Assembly (NCBI GenBank): GCA_003599865.1 | Contig: QZKS01000033.1 | Span: 1-54,543 of the forward strand | DNA: 54,543 nt | Origin: Desulfobacteraceae bacterium | GTDB lineage: Bacteria > Desulfobacterota > Desulfobacteria > Desulfobacterales > SURF-7 | Reading direction: 5' to 3' | In this document: positions 22,696-54,543 of the stretch, piece after piece | Position numbering within the stretch: position 1 is the stretch's first letter | How the letters are laid out: every line of letters starts with the position of its first letter | Position numbers and translations under genes: made by a program | Notes under the pieces: generated by a model | Told to the model about the DNA's origin: nothing | Database searches by the model: none | The model's input: the letters and a program-made list of their open reading frames with translations, nothing else

Positions 22696-22726
22696 AGAAA
22701 ACAAACCATCAGCAAGGAGAAGATTG

Positions 22727-23884: not shown

Positions 23885-23917
23885 GCATTTTGTTCCAGAA
23901 TTGGAATGGGGTTTTAC

Positions 23918-37802: not shown

Positions 37803-38930
37803 TTGAAATTTATCGATTTGGAATTTCAGCAGAAAAGAATTCAAGATAAAATTGAATCCAATATCAAAACCGTGCTTGATCACGGTCAATACATTATGGG
37901 GCCGGAAATTGCGGCCCTTGAAAACACACTGAATCAATACATCGGGTCAAAACATGCGATTTCCTGTTCATCAGGCACCGATGCGCTTTTTCTTTCGCTG
38001 CTTGCATATAACATTGTCCCGGGAGATGCTATCATAACAACGCCCTTCACCTTTATTGCAACAGCAGAGGTGATCAGTTTGCTTGGAGCTACCCCGGTTT
38101 TTGTGGATATCGACCCAAAAACCTTTAATATCGATCCAGATCAAATTACGAAGAAGATTATTGAAATCAAGGCCACTCGAAATGACATTATGGTCAGGGG
38201 TATTATTGCAGTCGACCTTTTTGGGCTGCCTGCGGATTATGATCGGATCAACGCTATTGCCAAGGAGCATAATCTTTTTGTAATTGAAGACGCTGCACAG
38301 TCATTCGGAGCTGTTTACAAGGGGAAAAAAGCATGCTCATTAGGAGATGTCGGTTGTGCTTCCTTTTTTCCTGCCAAACCATTGGGCTGTTATGGGGATG
38401 GAGGAATGTGTTTTACGGATAATCCGGTATTGGCTGAAAAAATCGGCTCGTTGCGTGTCCATGGGAAAGGCGGCCACAAGTATGATAATATCCGTATAGG
38501 AAGCAATAGCCGGTTGGATACAATTCAGGCCGCGATTCTTCTTGCCAAGTTTGAAATTTTTCCGGAAGAAATTACACTTCGTCAACAGGTGGCATCGCGG
38601 TACCAAAAAAAATTATCGAATCATCCAGCACTCATTACCCCTTACATTCCTGACAGATCCATGAGTATCTGGGCGCAATACTCCATACTCGCGAAAAATG
38701 AGGTGCACAGGAAGGATTGCATGTCAAAACTAAAGAATCATGGAATCCCTACAGCCGTATACTATCCAAAACCGTTGCATCTTCAGGGAGCGTTTGAGTA
38801 TCTTCAATATCGAGAAGGGGAATTACCGGTCAGTGAGAATATTGCAAAGCGGATTTTCAGCCTTCCAATGCATCCCTATTTAACGGAAGAAGAACAAGAG
38901 GATATCATTAAGGTATTATCCGCATGCTGA
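37803..38930 (+). CDS. wbpE: DegT-family aminotransferase, WbpE/WlbC-like
   Basis: PLP aminotransferase expected to turn UDP-3-keto-GlcNAcA into UDP-3-amino-GlcNAcA. 375 residues. The N-terminus KFIDLEFQQKRI, SSGTDALFLSL, DLFGLPAD, EDAAQSFGA and the PLP lysine Lys192 in FFPAKPLG all match WbpE-type enzymes. The start is TTG at 37803 after GGGGGG; there is no ATG nearby and homologues begin at this point. The next gene encodes the dehydrogenase and acetyltransferase steps on either side of this reaction. Confidence 0.88.
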   Translation: MKFIDLEFQQKRIQDKIESNIKTVLDHGQYIMGPEIAALENTLNQYIGSKHAISCSSGTDALFLSLLAYNIVPGDAIITTPFTFIATAEVISLLGATPVFVDIDPKTFNIDPDQITKKIIEIKATRNDIMVRGIIAVDLFGLPADYDRINAIAKEHNLFVIEDAAQSFGAVYKGKKACSLGDVGCASFFPAKPLGCYGDGGMCFTDNPVLAEKIGSLRVHGKGGHKYDNIRIGSNSRLDTIQAAILLAKFEIFPEEITLRQQVASRYQKKLSNHPALITPYIPDRSMSIWAQYSILAKNEVHRKDCMSKLKNHGIPTAVYYPKPLHLQGAFEYLQYREGELPVSENIAKRIFSLPMHPYLTEEEQEDIIKVLSAC

Positions 38931-39062
38931 TCCATACTGATTGATGGACATAACAGTTATACGTACTGAAGAATATCTATCCAATGTAAGCGGTTTCTTG
39001 ACTTTCGGAAAGAAATATCAAAATCATTTCAAGTTTGGTTTAACCATGGAGGTTCTAATACA

Positions 39063-40769
39063 GTGAATCCAGAAACAGACAAAATACCCGCTATTGCAGT
39101 TATCGGCAGTGGCTACTGGGGTAAAAATCTTGTTCGAGTTTTTCATACCTTGCATGCACTGAAACTGATTTGTGATAAAAACGAAGATACTCTTATCAGA
39201 TTCAAGGAATCATATCCTGAAATTGAGATCTGCCAATCACTTTCAGAACTCTTAATCCGGGACGATATTGATGGGGTGGTTATAGCCGCACCTGCTGAAA
39301 CCCATTACGATATTGCACGGGAGGTATTGCTTTCAGGAAAACATGTTTATGTTGAAAAACCGCTGACACTTCGAGAAGAAGACGGAGAAGAGCTGATCAG
39401 GATCGCTAAAAATCAGAATAAAACCTTAATGGTAGGCCATCTTCTTCAATACCATCCGGCGTTTTGCCGTTTAAAAGAATTGGCCAGGAACGGAGAACTT
39501 GGAAAAATTAATTATATTTATTCCAATCGATTGAATCTGGGAAAAATTCGAAGAGAGGAAAATATTCTCTGGTCCTTTGCCCCTCATGATATCTCAATGA
39601 TCCTGTCTCTTGCCGGTGAATTTCCGGAAGCGGTTTATGCTACCGGAGGCAACTATTTGCATAAAAAAATTGCTGATGTAACCACAACACATCTTGATTT
39701 TTCTTCTGGTTTGAAAGCGCATATTTTTGTTTCATGGCTCCATCCATTCAAGGAACAAAAGCTTGTGGTTGTCGGTGATAAAAAGATGGCTGTTTTTGAC
39801 GATACTCAGCCTTGGGAAAAAAAGCTCCTTCTGTACCCTCATAAAATAAACTGGAAAAACAACATTCCTGTTCCGGATAAGGCTGATGCAGAAAAAATAG
39901 AACTCCCGGAAAGTGAACCCCTGAAACTGGAATGTGAACATTTTCTACAGAGCATATTGCTTAAATTCAGACCGATAACCGATGGAGAAGAAGGGCTTCG
40001 CGTTCTAAAAGTCCTGAATGCCTGCCAGCGTTCCCTGGATTCCGGTAATTGCAAAATCGTTTTAAAAGGGAATGAGAACAAGGATGTCCAAATCCATTCA
40101 AGTGAAAACAAGAAACAGCAGTCAACCGATTATTTTCATCATGAGACAGCGGTAATCGACGAGGGTGCAGAGATCGGTCCGAAAACAAAAATCTGGCATT
40201 TCTCCCACATTCTGAAAGGTGCAAAAATTGGAGCCGGATGCAATCTTGGACAAAATGTTTCTGTATCCGGAGGCGTAACATTGGGTAACAATGTAAAGGT
40301 TCAAAACAATGTCTCCATATATGAAGGAAGTATCGTGGAGGATGATGTCTTTCTGGGGCCTTCCTGTGTATTGACAAATGTCACAAATCCGCGATCTCAG
40401 ATCACAAGACGATCTCTTTATGAGACGACACTGATCCGTCGAGGCGCAACCATCGGCGCCAATGCGACCATTGTTTGTGGTGTGACGATCGGACGGTATG
40501 CATTTGTTGCAGCCGGGACTACGGTTACCCGTGATGTTCCTGATTATGGCCTGGTAATGGGTTCTCCAGGCAGACTCCACGGGTGGATGAGCCGGCATGG
40601 CCATCGATTGACCTCTTCAGGAAATGGCCCCATGATATGTCCGGAAAGCGGATTGCGCTATCAGGAGATTGAACCCGGCGTTTTGCGCTGTCTTGATGTG
40701 GATGAGGAAGAACCATTGCCTTCCAGTATGTCGGTTGGCGTCAACTCCTATGATTATTTTAAATCATGA
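39063..40769 (+). CDS. fused UDP-GlcNAcA 3-dehydrogenase and N-acetyltransferase (WlbA-WlbB)
   Basis: 568 residues, two enzymes in one chain. Residues 8-335 are a Gfo/Idh/MocA oxidoreductase (GSGYWG 15-20, catalytic EKP 98-100, HDISM around 175). Residues 357-515 are a left-handed beta-helix acyltransferase with hexapeptide repeats (ETAVIDEGAEIG, then KIWHFSHILKGAKIG), as in WlbB/WbpD. A short C-terminal tail has two cysteines (CPESGLRYQEIEPGVLRC). The first domain oxidises C3 of UDP-GlcNAcA and the last acetylates the amine made by the upstream aminotransferase. The start is GTG at 39063 with GGAGG about ten bases before. Confidence 0.88.
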   Translation: MNPETDKIPAIAVIGSGYWGKNLVRVFHTLHALKLICDKNEDTLIRFKESYPEIEICQSLSELLIRDDIDGVVIAAPAETHYDIAREVLLSGKHVYVEKPLTLREEDGEELIRIAKNQNKTLMVGHLLQYHPAFCRLKELARNGELGKINYIYSNRLNLGKIRREENILWSFAPHDISMILSLAGEFPEAVYATGGNYLHKKIADVTTTHLDFSSGLKAHIFVSWLHPFKEQKLVVVGDKKMAVFDDTQPWEKKLLLYPHKINWKNNIPVPDKADAEKIELPESEPLKLECEHFLQSILLKFRPITDGEEGLRVLKVLNACQRSLDSGNCKIVLKGNENKDVQIHSSENKKQQSTDYFHHETAVIDEGAEIGPKTKIWHFSHILKGAKIGAGCNLGQNVSVSGGVTLGNNVKVQNNVSIYEGSIVEDDVFLGPSCVLTNVTNPRSQITRRSLYETTLIRRGATIGANATIVCGVTIGRYAFVAAGTTVTRDVPDYGLVMGSPGRLHGWMSRHGHRLTSSGNGPMICPESGLRYQEIEPGVLRCLDVDEEEPLPSSMSVGVNSYDYFKS

Positions 40770-40782
40770 TGTGTAACTCAAC

Positions 40783-42039
40783 ATGCACCGATATCTTAAA
40801 AATAATCTGATTATTCTTGTTTTTATAAATTCCGGTTTTGTGTTTGGTTATATTTTTCAACTGATCATGGCCAGGACTCTAACTCCGGCTGAGTACGGCA
40901 GTTTTAATTCGTTGAATTCCATATCCATGGTATTGTCTGTTCCATTCACGGTTTTGCCCATTGTGTTTGCACGATATACTGTTGAATTGGCTGATACAGG
41001 GTTGGGCAAATTAAAAAACCTTTTATTCAAGAGCTCTCTCTTTATGTTGAAAGTTTGGATCGTTCTCATGGTTTTTGGTTTTTTTTTACTTCCCGGCATC
41101 AAGTCGTATCTGCATCTGGATTCTTTCATTCCCATCCTCATTGTATTTTTAGATATGCTGTTAATCTTAATCCTGTCAATAATGTTTGGCATTCTGCAGG
41201 GATTAAAACGGTTTTTCCCACTCAGTATGGGGCATTCCGGGTATGCAGTCATACGTTTGGCAGCAGGGATTTTACTGGTCTCTTTTTGGGGGTTAGCCGT
41301 TAATGGAGCCCTGCTCGCAGGAACGATTGGAACAGGCGTCGTTATCATTATCTGCTATTTTGTTCTGCGAGATATTTTTATCAGTAAAGAAATCGTCTTG
41401 GCCAAAAGTTTTTATCAGGAGATGATCCGTTATGCGTTTCCTGTTTTGATCGCGATCACGATGGTTAAATTAATTATGACCCTGGATATGGTGATGGTTC
41501 GACACTATTGCACGGAAGATGATTCCGGTTTTTATGCAACAGCTTCGATTATCGGAAGGTTGGCATTCAGCCTTCCTGCTGTCCTGGTGATTGTTCTTTT
41601 TCCGGAAGTTTCCAAACATTCCGGAAAGTCATCTGAAAATAAACATCTCTGGATCACACTTGGGCTAACTGCAATAATCGGTGGCGGGATTACCATAGTT
41701 TATGTGATCTGGCCTGAATGGATTATCATGATATTGTTTGGCAGGAAATATCTGGCCGGGAGTCCATTTTTACAAATTATTGGTGCCAATATGGCTTTAC
41801 TTGCGACAGCCAATGTTTTTTTTACCTATTATCTTGCAAACCTGAATTATAAATTTTTAATACCGTTGATCGGTGGGGTGTTTTTAATGGTTGGCCTTAC
41901 GCTGATCTATCATGAAAATGCTTTAATGATAGCCAAGATTCAAATGATTTCGGTTGTCTGTGTTTCTATTGGAAGCTTGGCTATATTCGTGACGGACAAC
42001 TCTAAAAAAAGTCGCTGCAAAAAAGCTACAATCTATTGA
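40783..42039 (+). CDS. wzx: Wzx-type polysaccharide flippase (first copy)
   Basis: 418-residue integral membrane protein with about 12 helices of the MOP/Wzx superfamily. The N-terminal FGYIFQLIMARTLTPAEYGSFNSLNS is the usual first-helix region. It would flip lipid-linked repeat units across the inner membrane. Thirteen bases after the fused sugar gene, with a weak ribosome site. A second flippase occurs at 50887 with little similarity. Confidence 0.82.
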   Translation: MHRYLKNNLIILVFINSGFVFGYIFQLIMARTLTPAEYGSFNSLNSISMVLSVPFTVLPIVFARYTVELADTGLGKLKNLLFKSSLFMLKVWIVLMVFGFFLLPGIKSYLHLDSFIPILIVFLDMLLILILSIMFGILQGLKRFFPLSMGHSGYAVIRLAAGILLVSFWGLAVNGALLAGTIGTGVVIIICYFVLRDIFISKEIVLAKSFYQEMIRYAFPVLIAITMVKLIMTLDMVMVRHYCTEDDSGFYATASIIGRLAFSLPAVLVIVLFPEVSKHSGKSSENKHLWITLGLTAIIGGGITIVYVIWPEWIIMILFGRKYLAGSPFLQIIGANMALLATANVFFTYYLANLNYKFLIPLIGGVFLMVGLTLIYHENALMIAKIQMISVVCVSIGSLAIFVTDNSKKSRCKKATIY

Positions 42040-42093
42040 ATATATTGATAAAGGTATTTTTTTTGATTTGAATGCTATGTGGAGAATCGTGCT

Positions 42094-43107
42094 ATGAATC
42101 ATTCCGTTAATGGAAAAGAAAAGAATATTGAGTTGATTGATATTATCAGGGTGTTATGGAGATGGAAGGTTCTTATCATCGTTGGCACCGCATTTGCGAT
42201 TTTGGTTATGGCATATGTCAATACCCTCATTACTCCGGAGTACTTGCTCAATATGGTAGTTCGTCCTGGAACGCTGAATATCAGCAATAACGGACAAATT
42301 ACATATGTCGATTCTGCGGAGAATATCAAAGCAATGATTGAGGCAAAGACGTTCAACCAGGAGATTAAGGATTTGATCAGAGCGGAAAAAAAATTTAAGG
42401 TTCCAGATCAGATCAAGTTATCAGTAGCCTTGCCGCCAGGCACAGCAAGCCTTGATATCAGCTACATCACTTCTGATATTGACAGGGGTGTTTTTATACT
42501 GAATCAATTGGGGACCCTTCTTGAAGCGAAATTTATTCCCATCGCAGATTATTATCGAAAAGAAATCGAACGGGATATAGAGAATATCAAACTGGAAATA
42601 CAGAGACAGGAACCGATTATTCAAAATGTACATTATGAAATTAAAATGATTGATAACCGTGTACATGAACTTCAGGATGATATCAAAAGAGTTCATTCAA
42701 ATACCGAGAGGCTTATCGAAGCAAGAAACAAGATACTTTCCTCAAAGCAAACCGGTGTGGACAGCATTTCGGTTTTGCTCGCAACAAATTCAATTCAGGG
42801 AAATATCAGCATAGCAAACAATTTTAAAAATGAATTACAGAACAATATGCTGACCCGTGATAAATTATCGCTGGAAATAAAAAACATTCAAAGTACGATC
42901 AAACTTATGGAAGAGAACATTAAAAAACTAAGCTTTAAAAAAGATATCATCGGGAGCATCCGTATACTTAAAGCACCTTCCTCACCTATTCAGGTCGAAC
43001 CGGATAAAAAACGTAATTTAAAAATCGCTTTTGTGGCAGGGTTAACATTTATGATTCTTCTATCATTTTTTATTGAATACCTGATGCATCACAAGATCAA
43101 GGAATAG
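42094..43107 (+). CDS. wzz: Wzz-family chain-length determinant
   Basis: Polysaccharide co-polymerase controlling O-chain length. 337 residues. The N-terminal ELIDIIRVLWRWKVLIIVGTAFAILVMAY includes the first membrane helix (about 27-45). A long helical periplasmic part with predicted coiled coil spans about 145-280, and a second helix at 317-334 (KIAFVAGLTFMILLSFFIEY) follows the PSSPIQVEPDKKRNLK junction. The start at 42094 has GGAG ten bases before; a GTG five codons upstream is the alternative. Wzz indicates Wzy-dependent assembly, although no wzy or waaL is visible here. Confidence 0.85.
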   Translation: MNHSVNGKEKNIELIDIIRVLWRWKVLIIVGTAFAILVMAYVNTLITPEYLLNMVVRPGTLNISNNGQITYVDSAENIKAMIEAKTFNQEIKDLIRAEKKFKVPDQIKLSVALPPGTASLDISYITSDIDRGVFILNQLGTLLEAKFIPIADYYRKEIERDIENIKLEIQRQEPIIQNVHYEIKMIDNRVHELQDDIKRVHSNTERLIEARNKILSSKQTGVDSISVLLATNSIQGNISIANNFKNELQNNMLTRDKLSLEIKNIQSTIKLMEENIKKLSFKKDIIGSIRILKAPSSPIQVEPDKKRNLKIAFVAGLTFMILLSFFIEYLMHHKIKE

Positions 43108-43144
43108 GTGTAGTATATCCAATCTGTTAAAAGAGTTTTAGCCA

Positions 43145-44251
43145 ATGAAAATAATAACAATAATTGGTGCGAGACCGCAATTCATTAAATCCGCAGCGGT
43201 TTCGCGTGCAATAAAACAGCATAACGCGCTTTCTTCACATAGTGATACTTTGGAGGAGGCCATTGTTCATACCGGTCAACATTATGACCAGAAAATGTCT
43301 GATATTTTTTTTAAAGAGCTAGAGATTCCCGAACCCGCCATCAATTTGAATATCGGTTCCGGCAGTCATGGTTTTCAGACCGGTCAAATGCTGATTAGAA
43401 TAGAAGCGTTACTATTATCTGAAAAACCGGATATAGTGTTGGTTTATGGGGATACCAACTCAACGCTCGCCGGTGCGCTTGCGGCAGTAAAATTACATCT
43501 GCCGATTGCTCATGTCGAATCCGGGTTGCGTTCTTTTAATAAAAGAATGCCGGAAGAACACAATCGAATTGTAACAGACCATATATCGACACTGCTTTTT
43601 TGCCCAACAAAAACTTCAATTGAAAATTTGACCCGGGAAGGAATTTCAGAGGGTGTTCATCTTGTGGGAGATGTGATGTTTGATTCTGTTCTTTATAATT
43701 TTGAATTGGCACAAAAAAAATCGGCAATTTTAGATCGGTTATCACTAATCCCCAAAACATACGCATTGGCAACAATTCATCGTGCTGAAAATACCGATCA
43801 TGCAGAACGGCTAAAAAAAATTATTCAGGCCTTTGAGGACACAGCAAAATCGAAAATACAGATTGTCATTCCCATGCACCCAAGAACCAGAAAACGGATC
43901 GCTGAACTTAATATAGACGTTAAATATTCTATGATTATTGAGCCGGTATCCTATCTTGATATGCTTCTTCTTGAAAAACATGCATCCTTTATTTTTACGG
44001 ATTCCGGTGGAGTTCAAAAGGAAGCATACTGGGCTAAAGTCCCATGTATTACTTTACGGGATGAAACAGAATGGGTTGAAACGGTTGCGTCCGGTTGGAA
44101 TTTTCTTGCCGGTGCAGACTACGGATCCATAATCGCATCATTGGAAAATAGAACAGTCGCGAAACAGTCGACATCATTATATGGAAATGGGAACGCATCC
44201 CAATTGATCATTCGTGAACTGTTACGAATGAACGGAAAGGCTGCTTTATAA
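43145..44251 (+). CDS. wecB: non-hydrolysing UDP-sugar 2-epimerase (WecB/WbpI-like)
   Basis: 368 residues of the GT-B-fold epimerase family. GARPQFIKSAAV is at the N-terminus, catalytic Asp103 is in YGDTNST, Glu125 in HVESGLRSF and Glu137/138 in MPEEHNR; HRAENTD and TDSGGVQKEA bind UDP. Either it makes UDP-ManNAc, or, given the neighbouring WbpE and WlbA-B enzymes, it converts UDP-GlcNAc3NAcA to UDP-ManNAc3NAcA as WbpI does. Context favours the second. Confidence 0.88.
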   Translation: MKIITIIGARPQFIKSAAVSRAIKQHNALSSHSDTLEEAIVHTGQHYDQKMSDIFFKELEIPEPAINLNIGSGSHGFQTGQMLIRIEALLLSEKPDIVLVYGDTNSTLAGALAAVKLHLPIAHVESGLRSFNKRMPEEHNRIVTDHISTLLFCPTKTSIENLTREGISEGVHLVGDVMFDSVLYNFELAQKKSAILDRLSLIPKTYALATIHRAENTDHAERLKKIIQAFEDTAKSKIQIVIPMHPRTRKRIAELNIDVKYSMIIEPVSYLDMLLLEKHASFIFTDSGGVQKEAYWAKVPCITLRDETEWVETVASGWNFLAGADYGSIIASLENRTVAKQSTSLYGNGNASQLIIRELLRMNGKAAL

Positions 44252-44252
44252 A

Positions 44253-45305
44253 ATGAGGAATAATAAAAACCTTTTTTTAAAACGTCTCACAACAAGGCAA
44301 AACTGCATCATCATCGGAGAAGTCGCTCAGGCCCATGATGGCAGCCTTGGGATGGCTCATGCCTATATTGATGCAATTGCCGATGCCGGAGCAGATGCGG
44401 TCAAGTTCCAGACGCATATCGCTTCTGCTGAAAGCACGATTCACGAACCCTGGCGCGTTAAATTCAGCCTTCAGGATAAAACAAGATACGATTACTGGAA
44501 ACGCATGGAATTTACGGAAGACCAATGGAAAGGTCTCAGAAATCATGCGGAAGAAAGGGGTATGTTTTTTTTAAGCTCCCCATTTTCATCTGAAGCGGTT
44601 GACATGCTTACAAGGGTTGGTGTCGATGCATGGAAAATCGCCTCCGGAGAAGTTACAAATACACCAATGTTCGAAGGGATTGTTCGGACACGTTTACCGG
44701 TCCTGCTTTCTACAGGCATGAGCTTGATTCATGAAGTGGATGAAGCAGTAAAAGAGATTCAAGCCGCTGGATTGCCTCTGGTGATTCTCCAGTGCACATC
44801 CATGTATCCGACACCTGCAGAAAAAATCGGTCTGAATATGATTCCTTTTTTTCGCGAACGGTATAACTGTTTAGCAGGTCTCTCTGACCACTCATCAAAA
44901 ATTTTTCCGGGGATTGTCGCCGCATCTATGAACATTGATGTGCTTGAAGTCCATGTCACGCTGAGCAGAGAGATGTTTGGCCCTGATGTTTTAGCATCAT
45001 TGACAACGCATGAATTGGGAATGCTTGTTGAAGGCATCCGATTTGTCGAAACAATGATGGATCATCCGGTTGATAAAGATGGAATGGCTGACTCGTTAAA
45101 GGTTATGAGACAACTTTTTACCAAGAGCATTGTGACACGAAAATCGATCAAAGCAGGTTCAATTATAAAGGAAAAAGATCTTGCCATTAAAAAACCAGGT
45201 GGCGGGCTGCCTGCAGAAAGACTTTCTGAAGTGATCGGCATGCGCCTTTTGAAAACGGTTTCTGCCGATCATATTTTACAGGAAGGTGACCTGGAGAAAA
45301 GATGA
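44253..45305 (+). CDS. neuB: nonulosonic acid synthase (NeuB family)
   Basis: Condenses PEP with a six-carbon N-acetyl sugar to give a nine-carbon nonulosonic acid. 350 residues. The TIM barrel has IGEVAQAHDGSLGMAHAYID and ADAVKFQTH at the start, FLSSPFSSEAVDML, KIASGEVTN, STGMS and GLSDHS; a C-terminal SAF/antifreeze-like domain (about 290-350) has SIVTRKSIKAGSIIKEKDL. Since the adjacent epimerase is NeuC-like and no LegB/LegC or PseB/PseC is visible, N-acetylneuraminic acid or a variant is the simplest product. One base after the epimerase stop; the 3' end overlaps neuC by four bases. Confidence 0.88.
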   Translation: MRNNKNLFLKRLTTRQNCIIIGEVAQAHDGSLGMAHAYIDAIADAGADAVKFQTHIASAESTIHEPWRVKFSLQDKTRYDYWKRMEFTEDQWKGLRNHAEERGMFFLSSPFSSEAVDMLTRVGVDAWKIASGEVTNTPMFEGIVRTRLPVLLSTGMSLIHEVDEAVKEIQAAGLPLVILQCTSMYPTPAEKIGLNMIPFFRERYNCLAGLSDHSSKIFPGIVAASMNIDVLEVHVTLSREMFGPDVLASLTTHELGMLVEGIRFVETMMDHPVDKDGMADSLKVMRQLFTKSIVTRKSIKAGSIIKEKDLAIKKPGGGLPAERLSEVIGMRLLKTVSADHILQEGDLEKR

Positions 45306-46459
45306 TGAAAAGAAAAGTGTGTGTTGTAATCACTGCGCGCCCAAGCTATGCCAGAATCAAAACGGCATTGCGATCCATTGAATTTCATCCTGATTTGGAG
45401 CTTCAGCTCATTGTTGCAGCTTCCGCTTTGCTGAATCGTTATGGGGATGCATTTAAAAGCATAGAAAAAGACGGTTTTAAGATAGATCGCCGGGTTTACA
45501 TGATTCTTGAAGGTGAAAACCTTGTTACTTCAGCAAAATCGACCGGACTAGGAATAGCGGAACTGGCTACTGTTTTTGATAACCTGCAACCTGATATCGT
45601 GGTAACGATTGCGGATCGATTCGAAACCATGGCCACAGCAATTGCTGCATCATATATGAATATTCCGTTGGTTCATGTCCAGGGAGGTGAGGTAACCGGT
45701 TCGATAGATGAAAAGGTCCGGCATTCAATAACAAAACTTGCCGATTTGCACTTTGTTTCCACAAAAAAAGCAAAGGAAAGAGTAATCCGGATGGGTGAAG
45801 ATCCAAAAAAAGTTTTTGTCACAGGATGTCCTTCTATTGACTTGGCTTCAGAGATTATATCAAACCCTGAGATGAATTTTGATCCGCTGACAAAATATAA
45901 TGCAGTTGGCCCTGCTATAGATATTTCTTCAGGGTATATTGTTGTCATGCAGCACCCTGTGACAACTGAAATCGATTCAGCACGGCGCCATATTGAGGAA
46001 ACGTTGCATGCAATTTTAAATCTGGGCATACCTGCTTTGTGGTTTTGGCCGAACGTGGATGCCGGATCAGATGGGACATCAAAAGGTATACGAAATTTCC
46101 GGGAAGTCTACAGCGCTCGAAATATCCGGTATTATAAAAATATGATGCCGGAAGACTTTTTGCGTTTAGTCTACAACAGCTCATGTGTAGTCGGTAATTC
46201 AAGTGTAGCGATCAGGGAGTGTTCGTTTCTCGGCGTTCCTGCAGTAAATATCGGAAACCGTCAAAAAGACCGGGAAAGAGGGCAAAATGTAATAGATGTC
46301 GATTGTGATCGTAAAGCCATATGCAATGCCATCAATAAACATATGGAAAATGGAAAATATCCGTCTGATCCATTGTATGGTGATGGTACGGCAGGAAAAC
46401 AAATCGCAGGACTTCTTGCAACCGAAGCGCTTTCTATTGAGAAAAGATTGATGTATTGA
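45302..46459 (+). CDS. neuC: hydrolysing UDP-GlcNAc 2-epimerase (NeuC-like)
   Basis: 385 residues. ITARPSYARIKTALRSI and IADRFETMATAIAASYMNIPLVHVQGGE mark the hydrolysing branch, distinct from the WecB-like gene just upstream. VVGNSSVAIRECSFLGVPAVNIG binds the nucleotide. It releases ManNAc (or a related sugar) from UDP for NeuB. The start overlaps the neuB stop as ATGA, so the two are translationally coupled. A LegG-type substrate (UDP-2,4-diacetamido sugar) is possible. Confidence 0.87.
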   Translation: MMKRKVCVVITARPSYARIKTALRSIEFHPDLELQLIVAASALLNRYGDAFKSIEKDGFKIDRRVYMILEGENLVTSAKSTGLGIAELATVFDNLQPDIVVTIADRFETMATAIAASYMNIPLVHVQGGEVTGSIDEKVRHSITKLADLHFVSTKKAKERVIRMGEDPKKVFVTGCPSIDLASEIISNPEMNFDPLTKYNAVGPAIDISSGYIVVMQHPVTTEIDSARRHIEETLHAILNLGIPALWFWPNVDAGSDGTSKGIRNFREVYSARNIRYYKNMMPEDFLRLVYNSSCVVGNSSVAIRECSFLGVPAVNIGNRQKDRERGQNVIDVDCDRKAICNAINKHMENGKYPSDPLYGDGTAGKQIAGLLATEALSIEKRLMY

Positions 46460-46493
46460 CCGGTGGTACATAGGAGATGGTTATAAAAGAATA

Positions 46494-47483
46494 ATGAAGC
46501 ATGCAATCAATATATTAAATTCAGAACCCGAAAATTATTCTGAAGATGCCAAAAAAATACTTCGGTCATTCGCGAATCTTCATGAAGAACCAGTCGACCG
46601 GGATCAGTTACTCAAGCTTCTGCCGAGTTTTGAAATCCTGATTGTAAGACTGGGTATAAAGATAGATAAGGATATTATCGATGCTGGGCATCGATTACAA
46701 TATATTGTAACAGCTACTACCGGTTTGGACCATATTGACGTAACATATGCAGAGACAAAAAATATAAAAGTACTAAGCCTTAAAGGAGAGAAAGAGTTTT
46801 TAAAGGAAATTCGTGCGACCGCTGAGCTTACTGTTGGTCTGGCTCTTGCGCTTATCCGGAATATCCCCGCTGCAGTTGAATCCGTTCAAACCGGGATATG
46901 GGACCGGGATTTATTCAAAGGCTCCGAATTGTATAAGAAGACAATCGGTATTATAGGGATAGGAAGGTTGGGAAAGATCGTCGCCGGCTATTGCAAGTCG
47001 TTTGGAATGAAGGTTATCGGATATGATCCATTTGAGATAATTGATTCGGCAATTGCAACTCAAACCGCATCTCTTTCTGAACTGCTCTCAAGTGCCGATA
47101 TTATCAGTATCCATGTTGCGTATGACAACACTACCCATAATCTTTTGAATTATGACGAGTTTGATAAGATAAAGCCAGGCGCCTTTTTGATTAATACATC
47201 CAGAGGTGGCATCATAAATGAAGATGCGCTGCTGCATGCACTGGAAACAAAGCGCATTGCCGGTGCGGCACTTGATGTGCTTCAGGGAGAACCCGCTATT
47301 CATGAAGACAATAAATTGATACTGTATTCAAGACAACATAATAATTTGATAATAACACCGCACATCGGGGGAAATACATGTGAGTCTTTCGTTAAAACAG
47401 AAGTTTTTATGGCCAACCAGTTGCGGGAAAATCTGATTAAGGATGGTGTGATGGATGAAAACACTGGCAATCATTCCTGCTAG
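46494..47483 (+). CDS. D-isomer-specific 2-hydroxyacid dehydrogenase family protein
   Basis: 329 residues. The NAD motif GIIGIGRLGKIV (about 150-161), the substrate-binding NTSRGGIINEDAL and the catalytic His in ITPHIGGNT are those of phosphoglycerate-dehydrogenase-like enzymes. Its place between neuC and neuA, with the neuA start inside its 3' end (29-base overlap), ties it to nonulosonic acid synthesis. Which alpha-keto or hydroxy acid it acts on is unknown. Confidence 0.85.
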   Translation: MKHAINILNSEPENYSEDAKKILRSFANLHEEPVDRDQLLKLLPSFEILIVRLGIKIDKDIIDAGHRLQYIVTATTGLDHIDVTYAETKNIKVLSLKGEKEFLKEIRATAELTVGLALALIRNIPAAVESVQTGIWDRDLFKGSELYKKTIGIIGIGRLGKIVAGYCKSFGMKVIGYDPFEIIDSAIATQTASLSELLSSADIISIHVAYDNTTHNLLNYDEFDKIKPGAFLINTSRGGIINEDALLHALETKRIAGAALDVLQGEPAIHEDNKLILYSRQHNNLIITPHIGGNTCESFVKTEVFMANQLRENLIKDGVMDENTGNHSC

Positions 47484-48150
47484 GGGCGGCTCAAAACGAA
47501 TACCTGGAAAAAATAAAAGACCATTTTGTGGCAAGCCGCTTATCGCGTGGACAATTGAAACCGCATTACAGGTCGAAACAATAGATCGGGTTATTGTCTC
47601 TTCCGACGATGAGGAGATACTGAAAATTGCAATGGAGCATGATGCAAGATTGCCGTTACGCAGGCCGCAGTCCATATCCGGTGATCAAGCGCCGGCAATT
47701 GAATATGTAAAGCATGCTGTTCGTTATCTTCGTGATAGTGAACGGTCTGAGTATGATGCTATCGTAATTTTACAGCCGACCTCTCCACTTACCCAACCGG
47801 AAGATGTAGGTGGTACTTTGAAACTTTTGGAAACGACCGGTGCGGACAGCGCGGTCAGTGTGGTTAAGCTTGATCATGCCATTCATCCGATAAAAATGAA
47901 AATACTGAAACAGGACAGGTTGTTTCCATATCTTGAAGAAGAGAATGGCAGAATGGCTTATCATGATTTACCAGAGATCTACATACGGAATTGTTCTGTT
48001 TATGCTTCCACAATAGAGACGATACATGAAAATATGATCATCGGCAATGACTGTCGGGCCTACATTATGCCTCGGGAGCGTTCTGTTGATATTAACGATG
48101 AGATCGATTTTATCTTTGCTGAATTTTTAATGGAAAAGAGAGGATTATGA
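47455..48150 (+). CDS. neuA: CMP-nonulosonic acid synthetase (NeuA family)
   Basis: Activates the nonulosonic acid with CTP to its CMP form. 231 residues. IPARGGSKRIPGKNKRPFCGKP is the CTP-binding N-terminus, LQPTSPLTQPEDVGG follows, and RSVDINDEIDF is the C-terminal metal-binding motif. It overlaps the dehydrogenase gene by 29 bases and the following oxidoreductase by four (ATGA). Without NeuD or glycosyltransferase genes in view, the exact sugar remains open. Confidence 0.9.
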   Translation: MKTLAIIPARGGSKRIPGKNKRPFCGKPLIAWTIETALQVETIDRVIVSSDDEEILKIAMEHDARLPLRRPQSISGDQAPAIEYVKHAVRYLRDSERSEYDAIVILQPTSPLTQPEDVGGTLKLLETTGADSAVSVVKLDHAIHPIKMKILKQDRLFPYLEEENGRMAYHDLPEIYIRNCSVYASTIETIHENMIIGNDCRAYIMPRERSVDINDEIDFIFAEFLMEKRGL

Positions 48151-49175
48151 CATTTAAGGCAGCCGTTGTCGGACTGGGACCTCAAGGGAAAAGAATCATT
48201 GAGGTAATTGATAAAATTGCAGATATATCTCTTATCGCACTTGCTGATAAAAATGAAAAAAGTCTGGAAAGTATAAAAAACCGTAAAACAGTGAATCAAT
48301 ATTCTGATGTCGATACACTGTTGAACCATGAAGAAATTGATTTGATTTGCATTGCGACCAATGGACCTTCTCATGCGGTTATTGCAGAGAAGTCAATCAA
48401 ACATGGAGTTAAATATCTTATGATTGAAAAACCCATGGCATGCTCTGTTGCGGAGTGTGATTTGATATACGAGCTGTCGGCCAAATACAATGTCAGGCTG
48501 GCGGTGAATCAATCGCGGCGTCATTGTGCAATGTATCAGTGGATTCAAAATGAAATCCGGAAAGAAGAAGAATGGGGAAAACCAAGATGCATTTGGATTC
48601 AGAGGCCGGGAATCGGCCTTGGAAATCTCGGGACCCATTCTTTTGATCTGGTAAGCTATCTCACCGGTAAACAAGTAGTTGTGGTTTCGGCATGGATTGA
48701 TAAACCGGTCAAAACAAATCCCAGAGGAAAAGAATTCGTTGATCCGGGCGGACTTGTCGTATTGGAGCTGGAAGGTGGAGCCAGGGCAGTCATATCTCAG
48801 ATTGAAGACGGTTCAGGACCCATGTCTGTAGAAATCGATATGACGGGCGGGCGAATACGCATCGATGAAAAATACAAATCACTCGAACTGATCAAGAGGG
48901 ATTTGAGTGTCATACCCGGTCCGAACCGTCCACCGGTTTTTGCCAAGATAGATCCGCCGATAGATTTGGATCTTCAGGTAAACATGTATGAAATGCTTTA
49001 TGGCGTTTTGACTGAGCTCATCTCCGATGAGCCGGTAAAATGTGATGCGGATAGCGGCCGTAATTCCATACAGATTCTGGCTGCTGCATATTTGTCCGAT
49101 AGGAAGGGAAACCAACCTGTGAATTTGAAATCCCATAAAAAGGAGTACATGAATATATGGCTTCCCGTAACATAG
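48147..49175 (+). CDS. Gfo/Idh/MocA-family oxidoreductase (first of a pair)
   Basis: 342 residues. The NAD(P) motif GLGPQG is at 9-14 and the catalytic-type Lys is in EKP (94-96); the C-terminal alpha/beta domain has GNLGTHSFDLVSYL. Translationally coupled to neuA (four-base overlap) and overlapping the next oxidoreductase by 19 bases. Similar genes accompany sialic/legionaminic acid loci (PtmF-like), where a sugar oxidation or epimerisation is suspected. Confidence 0.82.
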   Translation: MTFKAAVVGLGPQGKRIIEVIDKIADISLIALADKNEKSLESIKNRKTVNQYSDVDTLLNHEEIDLICIATNGPSHAVIAEKSIKHGVKYLMIEKPMACSVAECDLIYELSAKYNVRLAVNQSRRHCAMYQWIQNEIRKEEEWGKPRCIWIQRPGIGLGNLGTHSFDLVSYLTGKQVVVVSAWIDKPVKTNPRGKEFVDPGGLVVLELEGGARAVISQIEDGSGPMSVEIDMTGGRIRIDEKYKSLELIKRDLSVIPGPNRPPVFAKIDPPIDLDLQVNMYEMLYGVLTELISDEPVKCDADSGRNSIQILAAAYLSDRKGNQPVNLKSHKKEYMNIWLPVT

Positions 49176-50119
49176 TGAGGCTGGCCCTGATCGGATATGG
49201 GAGAATCGCTCCCAGGCATATGGAGGTATTCAGGGAGATCGGGTGTGAGTTTATTGCCGCCTGTAATAGAAGTGAAGGAGGACGCAAAAAAGCAGAGACT
49301 GAAGGAAAGATTAAAAAAACCTATCATACTGCCCTTGAAATGATCCAAAAAGAGAAACCGGATGGAATCGTTTGCTGCGCCTCTTTTGATGAAATTTTTA
49401 ATATTACCAGGAAAATCATACCGGCAGGAATACCCATGCTGATTGAAAAACCGCCAGGTACAAGCCTTTCGGAATATCTTGAACTGAGAGATCTATATCA
49501 AAAATATAAAACGCCGATAATGGTTGGAACCAATCGAAGGCATTATTCTGTTTTTCAGAAAGCCATTGAAGATGCCGGTGGGATAAAATCTGTTCAAGCT
49601 GTCTTTGTAAACTGGTCGGAGTCGCCTGAACATTTCAGAAAAAGAGGGTTTACAGATGATCAGATTAAAAAAATGATTTTCGGTAACAGCCTGCATGGTA
49701 TTGATTTGTTGGTATCCTTGTCAGGGAGAATCAAAAATGCGGATACGATCTGCTCTAACCCGGGAAATGATCTTCGTTGGATGATGAGTTTGCATGGCAT
49801 ATCTGAAAATGGTGTTCTGGCAAGTTTTCAATCTACATGGGACAGCCCTGGAGGCTGGCAGGTTACGATCTGTTCTCAAGGAAAAAGATATATTTTTTCC
49901 CCGTTGGAAAAATGTATAGTTACGAACAATAATAAAGAACAGAAAGAAATATTGCCGGATGCCTGTGATCTGGATTTCAAACCAGGTTTCTATCAACAGG
50001 CAACATTATTTAAGCAGACGATTGAAGGGAAAGTTGAAAATAATAACTGTTTGCTGGACAACATGGCCAATGCAATGGAACTGGCACAACAGCTAACGGC
50101 ATGTTGTTTACATGAATAG
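49157..50119 (+). CDS. Gfo/Idh/MocA-family oxidoreductase (second of a pair)
   Basis: 320 residues. The nucleotide motif is GYGRIA at 13-18 and EKP is at 97-99; GNSLHGIDLLVSL is the second conserved block. Only distantly similar to its upstream neighbour. AAGGAG ten bases before the start lies inside the preceding gene. Two successive members may perform an oxidation/reduction pair on one sugar, giving net epimerisation; this is inference. Confidence 0.82.
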   Translation: MASRNIVRLALIGYGRIAPRHMEVFREIGCEFIAACNRSEGGRKKAETEGKIKKTYHTALEMIQKEKPDGIVCCASFDEIFNITRKIIPAGIPMLIEKPPGTSLSEYLELRDLYQKYKTPIMVGTNRRHYSVFQKAIEDAGGIKSVQAVFVNWSESPEHFRKRGFTDDQIKKMIFGNSLHGIDLLVSLSGRIKNADTICSNPGNDLRWMMSLHGISENGVLASFQSTWDSPGGWQVTICSQGKRYIFSPLEKCIVTNNNKEQKEILPDACDLDFKPGFYQQATLFKQTIEGKVENNNCLLDNMANAMELAQQLTACCLHE

Positions 50120-50864
50120 AAAAGAAAGAATTGTTGTTATAGGTGACTCCCTGCCTTTACCTAGGATTGATGATGACAATCATGTTTTGTGGGACAAGAC
50201 CTGGCCGTATCTTTTACATAACGAGTTAAACAAAGACGGGAATCACTATGAAGTGATCAATTGTTCGATACGTTCCAGAACAATTGAAACTGTTACGGGC
50301 CATGATTTTAATGAACACATATTATGGAAAAAACCCGATATCATCATACTGCAGGTAGGAATTGTGGATTGTGCGCCGAGAATTTTTTCCAGAAAAGAAA
50401 AATTGATACTTGGGTTATCCTTTATTCCGGACTTCATAAGACAAAAAATTATAAAACACCGGTCACAAAAACGAAAAGAAATTTTGAGAAAAAATCCTCT
50501 CGGCAAGGTATATACCAAGCCGGAAGAGTATCATCGGTATATTGAAGATTTTTTTGTAAAAATCAAAAGCCTGTCATGGGAAATCAAGATAATAATTCTG
50601 CCGATTCTCTCCAATTCGATCCTGGAGGAAAAGTCTCCTGGGCATAACCATAATGCTCAGGTTTACAATGATATATTGAAGGATGCATGCATCAAATATC
50701 ATGCCCGGTGGATTGATCCTGAAAAATTTTTGCAGGCCGAACCATATCATAATTTATTTTGTGCGGATGGTTATCATTTGGATAAGGAAGGAAACCGGTA
50801 CACAGCGAATCTTGTTATGGAAGCCTTGCAGCAGACCCATCAGGAAGATTTCCGAACACATTAA
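50112..50864 (+). CDS. SGNH/GDSL-type hydrolase
   Basis: 250 residues. Block I GDSL is at 11-14 (Ser13) and block V has Asp219-x2-His222 in CADGYHLDKEG. Block III reads GIVD (83-86), with Val where the classical motif GxND has Asn. Cytoplasmic, no signal peptide. Probably an O-acetyl esterase or acetyltransferase-like enzyme acting on the glycan sugar. It overlaps the previous gene by eight bases. Confidence 0.78.
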   Translation: MNRKERIVVIGDSLPLPRIDDDNHVLWDKTWPYLLHNELNKDGNHYEVINCSIRSRTIETVTGHDFNEHILWKKPDIIILQVGIVDCAPRIFSRKEKLILGLSFIPDFIRQKIIKHRSQKRKEILRKNPLGKVYTKPEEYHRYIEDFFVKIKSLSWEIKIIILPILSNSILEEKSPGHNHNAQVYNDILKDACIKYHARWIDPEKFLQAEPYHNLFCADGYHLDKEGNRYTANLVMEALQQTHQEDFRTH

Positions 50865-50886: not shown

Positions 50887-52356
50887 ATGATGTTTGATAA
50901 AATTCGCACACTGATATATGACGCCTCCATTTATGGAGCGAGCAGCGTTCTCGGCCAGGTTATAAATTTTTGTCTGCTGCCCGTCTTTACAATATATCTG
51001 ACACCAAAAGACTTTGGCATACTTTCCATGACCAGTATTGTCATTTCACTTTTTGTTCCAATTGCGAACCTGGGGATGTCCAATGCAATTTTCAGAAGGT
51101 TTAATCTTTGTAAAGATGAAAAAGAAAAATGGGCGGTGTTTGACACGGGATTGTTGAGTGTCCTGATCGGAGCAGGTATTTTTTGTGTTCTTTGTCTTTT
51201 TTTTATTGATCCGATAACAAACTTGTTTGTTAAGGAGCTGTCTTACTCAGAAATATTTGTGATTACGGTCTTAACTGCAGCATTGACTACGATTGCGCAG
51301 GTCCCGGCTGTCGTTCTGAGAGCTCTCAGAAGGGTAAAACTGATTGCTCTTATCAATATCGTTTCCGTGCTGTTAACATCAGGGATATCGATCTGGCTCG
51401 TTGTCTGGAAACAGTACGGTGTATATGGAATCGTGATATCAAATCTGGCAGCCAATTCGATTCTGGTAACCGTATACTGTTTTATCTTCTTTCGCAGACA
51501 TCAAAAATTACAAATTGATTTTACAATCTGGAAATATATGTTTCGATACGGAGTACCGATCATACCCCACCGTCTTCAATCAATAGGGCTCTCACAGTTT
51601 AGCCACTACATGATTGCATCCATGGTAAGCATGGATCAGGCTGGAATTTATGGCATCGCTATCCGTATTACCATGCCCATGACGTTCATTGTCGGAGCAA
51701 TTCAAAATGCATGGGTTCCTTATAAATTTCAGTTACATGCAAATGAAACAAAACCGGAAACTATTTTTAGCTCCATAACGACCTATTATCTGATCTGCAT
51801 ATCCTATGTCTGGGCTCTGATATGTCTTTGGGGGCCTGAAATTGTCAGGATGATGACAACGGCAAACTACCATGAGGCAACATATCTGATTCCTGTGGTT
51901 GCATTGATTCCCTTATCACAAAGCATTTACTTCATGCTGGGAACCGGTGTTGAAATTACGGATAATACTAAACCCATACCCTTGATCAGTCTGGGAGGGT
52001 TGATCGTCACGGTCATAAGCGCTTTTCTGCTAATCAGGCAAACAGGCTCACAGGGCGCAGCTATCAGCACTTGTTTTGGATGGATAACAATGGCGGTCAT
52101 TGTTTTCCTGCTTTCACAGAAAAGATATAAGATTACATTCGACTGGTGGTGCATCGGGCTAAATTTTTTCCTGGTGATGGTACTTCTGATTGTTGTGATA
52201 GAAATGCAGACAATGGGGACTATTGTTCGTATCGCTTTAAATTTTTTAATTTCATTATTATTCCCGGTATTCCAGATCATTATTCTTCTCCGGTCACGAA
52301 ATGAGAGAGCGCGCATTTTACGCTTGTTCAAAACAAGAAAATTAAGCTTCCTCTGA
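50887..52356 (+). CDS. wzx: Wzx-type polysaccharide flippase (second copy)
   Basis: 489-residue membrane protein with about 12-14 helices and the polysaccharide-biosynthesis N- and C-terminal domain pattern: YGASSVLGQVINFCLLPVFTIYLTPKDFGILS at the start and PQAVVLRALRR-like VPAVVLRALRR in the middle. About 70 residues longer than the first flippase (40783) and from another branch of the family. It probably exports the nonulosonic-acid-containing unit. Confidence 0.85.
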   Translation: MMFDKIRTLIYDASIYGASSVLGQVINFCLLPVFTIYLTPKDFGILSMTSIVISLFVPIANLGMSNAIFRRFNLCKDEKEKWAVFDTGLLSVLIGAGIFCVLCLFFIDPITNLFVKELSYSEIFVITVLTAALTTIAQVPAVVLRALRRVKLIALINIVSVLLTSGISIWLVVWKQYGVYGIVISNLAANSILVTVYCFIFFRRHQKLQIDFTIWKYMFRYGVPIIPHRLQSIGLSQFSHYMIASMVSMDQAGIYGIAIRITMPMTFIVGAIQNAWVPYKFQLHANETKPETIFSSITTYYLICISYVWALICLWGPEIVRMMTTANYHEATYLIPVVALIPLSQSIYFMLGTGVEITDNTKPIPLISLGGLIVTVISAFLLIRQTGSQGAAISTCFGWITMAVIVFLLSQKRYKITFDWWCIGLNFFLVMVLLIVVIEMQTMGTIVRIALNFLISLLFPVFQIIILLRSRNERARILRLFKTRKLSFL

Positions 52357-53332: not shown

Positions 53333-54543
53333 ATGGATAATACACAAAAAATCATATTGAACAATAACTCGAACGACAGAACAGAAGTTAATAGATGGCT
53401 GATGGAACTCAGCAATCACTGCGGCCGGATCAAACCTCTGAGTGATATCCTATGGGAAGACTGTAATGTGATCGATATGTTGATGTCTCCTTTGACCGAG
53501 CTGCTGCTTAACCTTGTCAGACAGGAAAGAAATAAAAAAAAAATAAAGCATGGGATGGTCAATTCAAGAAGTTTCATATCGAAGGTAAAATTAAAATACG
53601 ATATGCTCAAGAATAACCATCGGTCGAAAAAAATAACATCTGCCCCTGAGAAGGCGAGTGTGATTTTTTGGCCATGTGAACCAACCCATCTGCAGTCTCA
53701 GATCCCTGTTGCCAAAGAACTGTTAAAAAGGAATATCAGTTGTGCGTTTCTTACAAACCGTCCAAGTCTTGTTCCAAAGATTGTGAAATTGGATTGTAAG
53801 GCGATTTATGCCGGCTTTTTATGGGAAAAAGAGATCAGAAGAGCAAAAAAGAAAGCAAGGACTCAAACAGAAAGATTCGCTGACCTGGGTTTTGGATTTC
53901 CGGATTTTATGATCCCATACGACCCTGAAAAGCTTTCGCAGTTGATTAGCGGACATATACGGATGATGCTGCCGTTCATGGTCGAGACAGCAGCCATATT
54001 TCGTGAAGCAGTTAACACGATTACTCCTTCACTGATGATCATAGGCAATGACCTGACCTATGAGGGGAGAATCGTATCCACTCTGAGCAAAACAAAGAAG
54101 CTGCCGACCGTAAGCATTATGCACGGGGTTGTTGATGGAAACCCCTTGCATTATCATCATATCGTCGACTTATTTCTGGTTCATGGGCAAAAAGCAAAGA
54201 AGATCATTGAACGGTCTTCAAAAAATAATACAAAAATCAGTATTTGCGGAGCTCCACATCTGGATCATATTACACGTAACAGGCAGATAAACCCAAAAAT
54301 CAAAGATGCTGTCAATATAAATCATAATGATCGTTATTGCCTGGTAGCCACTTCAGGACCTGGAAACAGCATCTCTTATAATCATCATCTGGAAGTCATA
54401 CAATCCATTTTCACTGCTTCAAAACGATTTCATAATGTGCATTTTGTCATAAAACTTCACCGAAAGGACCAGGTGGAATTTTACGAGAATATGCGATCCC
54501 GGAAAAACATAACCATCATTGAACACAGCCATAACAGATTGCC
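53333..54543 (+). CDS. GT-B-like glycan biosynthesis protein, truncated by window end
   Basis: The frame is open from the ATG at 53333 to the last base (about 403 codons). After a charged N-terminal 100 residues there is a Rossmann-like VIFWPCEPTHLQSQIPVAKEL segment, LMIIGNDLTYEGR, VSIMHGVVDG, LFLVHGQKAKKII, ICGAPHLD and VHFVIKLHRKDQ. This pattern resembles GT-B glycosyltransferases and UDP-sugar 2-epimerase/CDP-glycerol transferase relatives. It could be the first glycosyltransferase of the cluster. No clear ribosome site, so the start is tentative. Confidence 0.65.
   Translation, partial: MDNTQKIILNNNSNDRTEVNRWLMELSNHCGRIKPLSDILWEDCNVIDMLMSPLTELLLNLVRQERNKKKIKHGMVNSRSFISKVKLKYDMLKNNHRSKKITSAPEKASVIFWPCEPTHLQSQIPVAKELLKRNISCAFLTNRPSLVPKIVKLDCKAIYAGFLWEKEIRRAKKKARTQTERFADLGFGFPDFMIPYDPEKLSQLISGHIRMMLPFMVETAAIFREAVNTITPSLMIIGNDLTYEGRIVSTLSKTKKLPTVSIMHGVVDGNPLHYHHIVDLFLVHGQKAKKIIERSSKNNTKISICGAPHLDHITRNRQINPKIKDAVNINHNDRYCLVATSGPGNSISYNHHLEVIQSIFTASKRFHNVHFVIKLHRKDQVEFYENMRSRKNITIIEHSHNRL

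Follow-up and report, generated by a model that had tools for sequence, protein, structure and literature searches.

Which nine-carbon acid is made by an operon that holds neuB, neuC and neuA together with genes encoding three oxidoreductases, and do these additional genes belong to the pathway? The operon is located in a contig of a Desulfobacteraceae bacterium (QZKS01000033.1, assembly GCA_003599865.1), whose whole stretch of 54,543 nucleotides is called the window here. It shows seven open reading frames (ORFs) at 44253-50864 of the forward strand:

44253-45305, + strand: neuB, nonulosonic acid (NulO) synthase of 350 aa with NeuB (PF03102) and SAF domains, of a distinct type
45302-46459, + strand: neuC, hydrolysing UDP-N-acetylglucosamine (UDP-GlcNAc) 2-epimerase, TIGR03568
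46494-47483, + strand: D-2-hydroxyacid dehydrogenase (HADH) of a NulO-linked branch, 2-Hacid_dh_C
47455-48150, + strand: neuA, CMP-NulO synthetase, CTP_transf_3
48147-49175, + strand: GFO1, Gfo/Idh/MocA oxidoreductase, first of a pair
49157-50119, + strand: GFO2, second member of this pair, a Gfo/Idh/MocA oxidoreductase from a special subfamily
50112-50864, + strand: SGNH/GDSL protein, Lipase_GDSL_2, with the motifs GDS, GIVDCAPR and DGYH

The genes, families, strand and place given by an initial annotation, made from the letters alone, are confirmed by the ORFs and by Pfam and NCBIfam. Its statement that nearly all genes are joined by overlaps also holds, for five of the six junctions: neuB/neuC overlap by 4 nt, HADH/neuA by 29, neuA/GFO1 by 4, GFO1/GFO2 by 19 and GFO2/SGNH by 8, and the exception is neuC-HADH, with a 34-nt gap. 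The search for the same gene order in other genomes, which it had proposed, found again each of the sub-orders neuB-neuC-HADH, HADH-neuA, neuA-GFO1-GFO2 and GFO1-GFO2-SGNH-wzx, and since they all recur, the gene grouping appears to go beyond chance. We consider it fairly probable that the operon is a third NulO pathway of its genome, of the neuraminate type and with built-in redox tailoring, in which GFO1 and GFO2 act at C4 or C8 of the acid.

HADH is found with NulO genes in other genomes. Across 395 genomes of the phylum, 27 sequences other than that of the window match HADH at E<=1e-55. The 11 short ones (322-381 aa) are all in 16-kb stretches with NeuA, NeuB or NeuC, 10 of them within ~1.5 kb; the SerA-length matches show a NulO gene within ~1.5 kb in 0 of 14 cases. 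The remaining two are HADH-NeuA fusions, and two further fusions, found in Elusimicrobia and Pelagibacteraceae, have the opposite domain order, so that the four fusions cover both orders:

L026, 1459-3168: HADH-NeuA fusion, 569 aa
L027, 766-2472: HADH-NeuA fusion, 568 aa
L115, 7104-8861: NeuA/HADH fusion of Elusimicrobia, 585 aa, order opposite to L026 and L027
L131, 3169-4896: NeuA/HADH fusion of Pelagibacteraceae, 575 aa, order opposite to L026 and L027

Thirteen HADHs from NulO clusters were used as seeds to scan GTDB contigs. With ORFs called by matches first and length second, the scan gave 593 candidates and 568 confirmed loci, of which the best 80 were analysed. Among these 80, 57 contain NeuA, NeuB or NeuC in the flank, and a NeuA ORF is immediately before HADH in 29 and immediately after it in 11 (strand ignored). 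The linked loci belong to Chloroflexota, Bacteroidota, Pseudomonadota, Cyanobacteria, candidate phyla, one haloarchaeon, one Lokiarchaeote and others, and carriers of a NulO-linked HADH include Prochlorococcus, Pelagibacteraceae, haloarchaea and candidate phyla, and, among cultured organisms, Flavobacterium terrisoli PT-3, Formosa sp. L2A11 and Halovenus salina; the HADH part of the operon is not unique to this locus. In a tree of 107 rows, 72 NulO-linked and six unlinked rows are on one side of a branch with 99/93 support, and 14 SerA and 15 other rows are on the opposite side; the root is the midpoint, so the NulO-linked side is not proved to be a clade. The SerA rows, 14 in all, group on their own (99/96). 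The tree was built without two short or partial HADH rows (L082 and L130); L099 is labelled NulO-linked from its thiamine-enzyme and Gfo neighbours (no NeuA, NeuB or NeuC in its flank) and L131 through its fusion, and L043/L056 and L048/L093 (the latter of Desulfatibacillum) share a contig within each pair, each being counted twice in the tree, residue and NeuB counts. L048 belongs to the same-order genome G424, and its identity with the Desulfatibacillum contig would place the window near the Desulfatibacillum order of Thermodesulfobacteriota. Because of the four fusions and of a supported split that holds all NulO-labelled rows, HADH is well supported, by sequence comparison, as a gene of the NulO pathway whose step would be integral to it. 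The initial annotation had drawn the same from the 29-base overlap with neuA, and the fusions and the tree split give it stronger support.

HADH matches 2-Hacid_dh_C with 186.8 bits (cut-off 25.1) and shows R237, E266 and H290, which we take to be the catalytic Arg, Glu and His of 2-hydroxyacid dehydrogenases. All 72 NulO-linked rows keep R237 and E266, and 70 of them keep H290. The gene can hardly be a misplaced SerA paralogue for serine supply, although its closest solved folds and sequences are PHGDH, with which it shares the fold, the NAD-binding domain and the Arg-Glu-His set, and its AlphaFold model (mean predicted local distance difference test score 96) also has PHGDH as best fold matches. 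The score with the curated phosphoglycerate dehydrogenase family TIGR01327 is 255.6 against a cut-off of 454, the SerA rows stand apart in the tree, and the same genome contains two further SerA-length homologues. Position 73, aligned to R75 of human PHGDH, which presumably binds phosphate, is Thr; this position is T, S or C in 72 of 72 NulO-linked rows and R in 14 of 14 SerA rows. Position 80 is H in 71 of the 72 and N in the 14, and a five-residue insert at 100-104 is absent from all 14 SerA rows. The sequence pattern of this insert matches 34/57 linked and 5/23 unlinked loci and is no clean marker. The SerA (phosphoglycerate dehydrogenase) role was rejected on the sub-cut-off score, the separate tree group and the replaced Arg position. 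HADH is an active-looking dehydrogenase, probably with a substrate other than 3-phosphoglycerate, since the catalytic residues are kept and the R75 position is replaced.

GFO1 and GFO2 match PF01408 with 75.8 and 44.0 bits, respectively (cut-off 24), and both show the EKP lysine; the kept residues are Lys95 (EKP) and His164 in GFO1, and Lys98 (EKP), His180 and Asp183 in GFO2. Profiles made from three sequences each (the window, Azospirillum and genome G364) found GFO2 in three and GFO1 in four of 365 genomes, the window's genome included in both. All three GFO2 genomes have GFO1 beside GFO2, with one ORF in between in G364. Genomes and plasmids together, the pair was found in seven genomes including that of the window; all seven carry NulO genes on the contig or plasmid of the pair, six of them within 8 kb. 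The other six show the following arrangements:

G079: neuA-GFO1-GFO2, in the same order as in the window and with neuA and GFO1 overlapping, within 16.5 kb that show no further NulO gene
Azospirillum lipoferum 4B: neuB-formyltransferase-GFO1-GFO2, with neuC farther along
Sphingomonadaceae OTU29THOMA1 plasmid (L191, CP099622): LegB-LegC-neuC-neuB-...-neuA-SDR-GFO1-GFO2-SGNH-wzx, SDR being a short-chain dehydrogenase/reductase
Sinorhizobium mexicanum (NZ_CP041241): GFO1-GFO2 adjoining LegB-LegC
Mesorhizobium AR07: GFO1-GFO2 in reversed order, 7.7 kb from neuB
G364: GFO1-GFO2 pair 34 kb from NeuC

The plasmid records opened were three of the 225 that match GFO1 and the top three listed of the 163 that match GFO2. 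The order neuA-(SDR)-GFO1-GFO2-SGNH-wzx is common to the window and the legionaminic cluster of L191, whose flippase is 22% identical over 339 aa to the one that begins at 50887 in the window. A search with the L191 GFO2 gave three records only (Sphingomonadaceae, S. mexicanum and Mesorhizobium), all with NulO genes. Orthology of GFO2 is firm by profile (E 2.5e-31 in L191 and 2.9e-39 in L192; next best outside the pairs, 1.1e-11). By these loci, GFO1-GFO2 is a conserved pair, seen in company with NulO genes in each of the seven genomes found to have it. Comparison gives good support to the view, first proposed from the operon itself, that the redox genes are part of the NulO pathway, through the fusions and the tree for HADH and through the company of NulO genes in seven genomes for the Gfo pair. 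It is rather unlikely that the pair and the SGNH protein act on another sugar of this polysaccharide, with co-transcription as their only tie to the NulO genes. Further modified sugars are probably present in the polysaccharide, to judge from the UDP-2,3-diacetamido-like genes upstream (39063, 37803 and 43145), and the distance in G364 fits this alternative; however, in six of seven cases NulO genes are no more than 8 kb from the pair (some of these loci were opened because NeuC had matched), the three records of the L191 GFO2 search all contain such genes, and the trio of G079 occurs with no other NulO gene seen in its 16.5 kb.

The SGNH protein matches PF13472 (Lipase_GDSL_2) with 41.5 bits (cut-off 32.9) and contains the Ser of GDS and the Asp-x-x-His of DGYH; by eye, it shows no hydrophobic N-terminal segment. 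What we take to be block III, GxND in the usual block names, reads GIVD and has no Asn. The noncanonical GIVD had been read correctly, but it does not imply decay: the L191 homologue, 25% identical (pairwise E 3e-10), has GVVD, within GVVDCAPR, at the place of GIVDCAPR, and decay was rejected as the cause of the odd block. L191 is the one among the other genomes with an SGNH homologue after the pair. The window SGNH gave no solved relative, no plasmid match and no match in 17 chosen genomes, this last search having no positive control, and the L191 SGNH as query retrieved its own record only. The ORF of this homologue (5863-6552 of L191, CP099622.1 29862-30551) is mostly unannotated, and in the record only part of its length is covered, by a short hypothetical protein.

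NeuB, NeuC and NeuA are enough for CMP-N-acetylneuraminic acid (CMP-Neu5Ac), and the operon shares these three core enzymes with the bacterial neuB-neuC-neuA pathway. NeuC is above its family cut-off (TIGR03568, 385.1 bits against 235.9) and its nearest solved relative is the GNE-type epimerase/kinase 4zht (E 3.7e-72), which we take to be the human protein; the LegG-type 5xvs gives E 1.5e-55. NeuA has PseF as its best NCBIfam match, below the cut-off (156.4 against 205.7), and matches the CMP-Neu5Ac synthetase 6ifd with E 2.5e-30. In contrast with the Neu5Ac pathway, the window NeuB is below the cut-off of TIGR03569 (NeuB_NnaB; 294.4 bits against 399.65) and has Lys at the position of Arg314 of Neisseria meningitidis NeuB, presumably a substrate contact, and HADH, the two Gfo proteins and SGNH are extra. 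Lys is at this position in 34/34 window-type NeuBs (the window counted) and Arg in 45/46 ungapped Leg/Pse-type ones (legionaminic and pseudaminic acid, respectively); all but a few of the 34 rows come from loci selected by HADH, rows outside 280-420 aa were dropped, and the NeuB, LegB and LegC types were assigned by BLAST against the genome's own copies. A plain Neu5Ac pathway with passenger genes irrelevant to the NulO would agree with the sufficiency of the three core enzymes and with a NeuC of the GNE kind, but it is very improbable, given that the gene order recurs in different phyla, that four fusions exist and that the catalytic residues are conserved despite deep divergence.

The same genome has its separate NulO pathways on other contigs:

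C37, 49622-50335: pseudaminic pathway, with PseC and PseI above their cut-offs
C32, 19945-20664: legionaminic-type pathway, with LegC above its cut-off, LegB just below (457.1 against 475) and one NeuB below its cut-off

Since these two exist, the operon at 44253-50864 appears to be the third NulO pathway of the genome, of the UDP-GlcNAc to N-acetylmannosamine (ManNAc) type. A fourth, weaker NeuB-family match is in contig C36. Legionaminic and pseudaminic clusters contain relatives of NeuB, NeuC and NeuA, and GFO1-GFO2 is in or near several legionaminic ones; unlike them, the operon shows no close copy of LegB, LegC, PseC or PseI (PseB was not searched for on its own), whose copies in this genome are on the other contigs. 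The nearest ORFs of the window are 26-29% identical to the genome's own LegB (~20 kb off) and 31% to its LegC; the DegT protein at 37803 scores 207.9 with LegC (cut-off 420) and 250.2 with PseC (cut-off 423.5), and the window NeuB scores 212.5 with PseI (cut-off 340.25). A legionaminic or pseudaminic assignment of the operon was ruled out by these sub-cut-off scores and the lack of close LegB, LegC, PseC or PseI. NeuC (TIGR03568) is found in 41 of the 395 genomes, at 46 places besides the window. Within the stretches fetched, LegB or LegC is beside NeuC in 1/13 places with HADH versus 23/33 without it (Fisher p 1.8e-4), the latter including the second NeuC of G422, whose fused HADH is cut by the stretch end, and the NeuC of G094, whose fused HADH is ~12 kb away; ten places show neither. 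Among HADH loci with NeuB, LegB or LegC is present in 1/61 (L112). By these counts, HADH and legionaminic genes tend to exclude each other.

The reactions and the product are presented as proposals, beside the gene content, families, kept residues, recurring order and fusions described above. NeuC would convert UDP-GlcNAc to ManNAc, NeuB would add phosphoenolpyruvate to give a Neu5Ac-type nine-carbon acid, and NeuA would activate this acid with CMP. HADH, GFO1 and GFO2 would carry out oxidation and reduction on the acid, on its precursor or on the CMP-activated form; GFO1 and GFO2 probably work in succession, with oxidation followed by reduction, to yield an epimer or similar variant at C4 or C8. 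SGNH may add or remove an O-acyl group, O-acetylation being a guess, and the flippase would export the lipid-linked unit. The NulO itself as target of the redox enzymes, the carbon involved and the product are our inferences. C4 or C8 is a likely target because the pair serves both Leg-type and Neu-type clusters, whose acids share the hydroxyl groups at C4 and C8; legionaminic acid is 7-amino and 9-deoxy, and does not share C7 and C9 with neuraminic acid.

The reaction of HADH is the weakest step of the proposal. HADH may have an unusual NulO form as its substrate, or it may make a hydroxy-acid substituent. In the latter case, an alternative we regard as unlikely but worth keeping in view, a lactate-, glycerate- or 3-deoxyaldonate-like 2-hydroxy acid would be put on the NulO as N-acyl, ester or ether, with no action on the ring. 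The Arg-Glu-His set of true 2-hydroxyacid dehydrogenases is intact in HADH, possible transfer genes are sometimes near (MBOAT-like in 8/57 loci, asparagine-synthase-like amidotransferase in 13/57, methyltransferase-like in some) and one subtype shows a thiamine-diphosphate enzyme of the acetolactate-synthase kind directly after HADH; but HADH is fused or adjacent to NeuA and not to a transferase, and besides the asparagine-synthase kind no acid-activating ligase was recognised among the ten neighbour families scanned. The thiamine-diphosphate enzyme is directly 3' of HADH in L099, L109, L111, L112 and L121, and in part in L114, L119 and L166; 5/8 of these loci contain a Gfo/Idh/MocA gene, often with NeuA too. 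This arrangement appears to be another variant of NulO cluster, for which any hypothesis on HADH must account. A reduction of C2 of the NulO by HADH before activation was rejected by argument only, as it would take away the carbon that NeuA activates.

Several points weigh against tailoring of the NulO by these enzymes. We know of no chemistry for any of the redox enzymes. A D-2-hydroxyacid dehydrogenase normally needs the carbon beside the carboxylate, in a NulO only C2, and the HADH reaction is unexplained because C2 reduction would block CMP activation. The seven genes together were found in no other locus among those examined. BLAST found no NeuA, NeuB or NeuC in 23 of the 80 best HADH loci, six of which are inside the NulO side of the tree. 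HADH also seems dispensable for this NeuB type, since two loci found through NeuB show none: Rhizobium sp. WL3 (L190), with a Lys-type NeuB (41%), NeuC and NeuA but no HADH within 20 kb, and L189, a viral contig where a NeuB (49%) but no HADH was seen. Two of the seven pairs (CP099622 and NZ_CP041241) were opened since the records also matched NeuC. Orthology of GFO1 is weak (E 3.7e-18 in L191 and 1e-11 in L192, 21-24% identity, with an unrelated-looking Gfo protein at 1.1e-15), and G332 and Escherichia coli KE47 contain a GFO1-like gene without a recognised GFO2.

A broader reading, held tentatively and a little short of even confidence, is that HADH marks an undescribed, widespread class of neuraminate-type NulO in Bacteria and Archaea, in which it acts with NeuA on the NulO or CMP-NulO, and that GFO1-GFO2-SGNH is a second cassette acting at C4 or C8. 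Gene content is a common basis for predicting NulO structures, and Neu5Ac would be the prediction for a cluster containing NeuB, NeuC and NeuA. Should a Gfo pair and a dedicated dehydrogenase family, fused or coupled to NeuA, alter the sugar, many such predictions would fail in both Bacteria and Archaea, and marine and uncultured microbes would make a class of surface sugars that has been overlooked. The natural NeuA-HADH fusions are ready-made test proteins.

For redox tailoring that involves a fused cytidylyltransferase, other enzyme families offer a precedent: EpaA, a cytidylyltransferase-aldo-keto reductase fusion, and EpaB, a short-chain dehydrogenase/reductase, are reported to give the 8-epimer of pseudaminic acid (PMC12053666). 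The likeness is a cytidylyltransferase-reductase fusion with a second dehydrogenase, as may hold here; the families differ, being aldo-keto reductase and short-chain dehydrogenase/reductase in EpaA/EpaB, and D-2-hydroxyacid dehydrogenase and Gfo/Idh/MocA in the operon. At E<=0.001, none of the seven proteins has a Pfam match to aldo-keto reductase or short-chain dehydrogenase/reductase. RgNanOx, a Gfo/Idh/MocA enzyme, is reported to oxidise C4 of Neu5Ac transiently (PMC7535918); RgNanOx/YjhC and GFO1/GFO2 belong to the same superfamily, but the former is a single enzyme of catabolic 2,7-anhydro-Neu5Ac conversion and not a tandem biosynthetic pair. In Leptospira santarosai, a phosphoglycerate dehydrogenase domain is reported as part of a sialic acid synthase (PMC4758666), perhaps a further fusion. 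In the 2-hydroxyacid dehydrogenase classification paper PMC6303947 a term search gave no match, and passages of PMC3438082, PMC7371886 and PMC8397731 gave nothing further. In full-text searches no study was recognised on this HADH or Gfo pair in NulO synthesis, which is weak evidence, as subscription journals are thinly covered. HADH, GFO1 and NeuA show no relative in viral contigs; HADH, GFO1 and NeuB gave distant or generic matches only in phages, and all plasmid matches of HADH are below 60% identity (33-40% among the 20 listed).

The operon is flanked on the same strand by:

43145-44251, + strand: WecB/WbpI-like non-hydrolysing epimerase (TIGR00236, 338.9 against a cut-off of 210.15), which stops 1 nt 5' of neuB
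50887-52356, + strand: wzx-like flippase, which begins 22 nt 3' of SGNH

Since both are so close, the transcription unit is probably longer than 44253-50864. The epimerase likely serves another sugar of the same polysaccharide. The upstream region 37803-44251 contains, besides this epimerase, a DegT aminotransferase (37803) and a fusion of Gfo and left-handed-helix acetyltransferase (39063, 568 aa); to judge by their families, these genes are probably a UDP-2,3-diacetamido uronic acid route into the same polysaccharide. Three successive ORFs of the extended short-chain dehydrogenase/reductase type, 26-29% identical to LegB, are at 21736-24904, ~20 kb upstream of the operon, and a gene at 53333-54541, perhaps a GT-B transferase, shows weak UDP-GlcNAc 2-epimerase-like similarity and is cut by the contig end.

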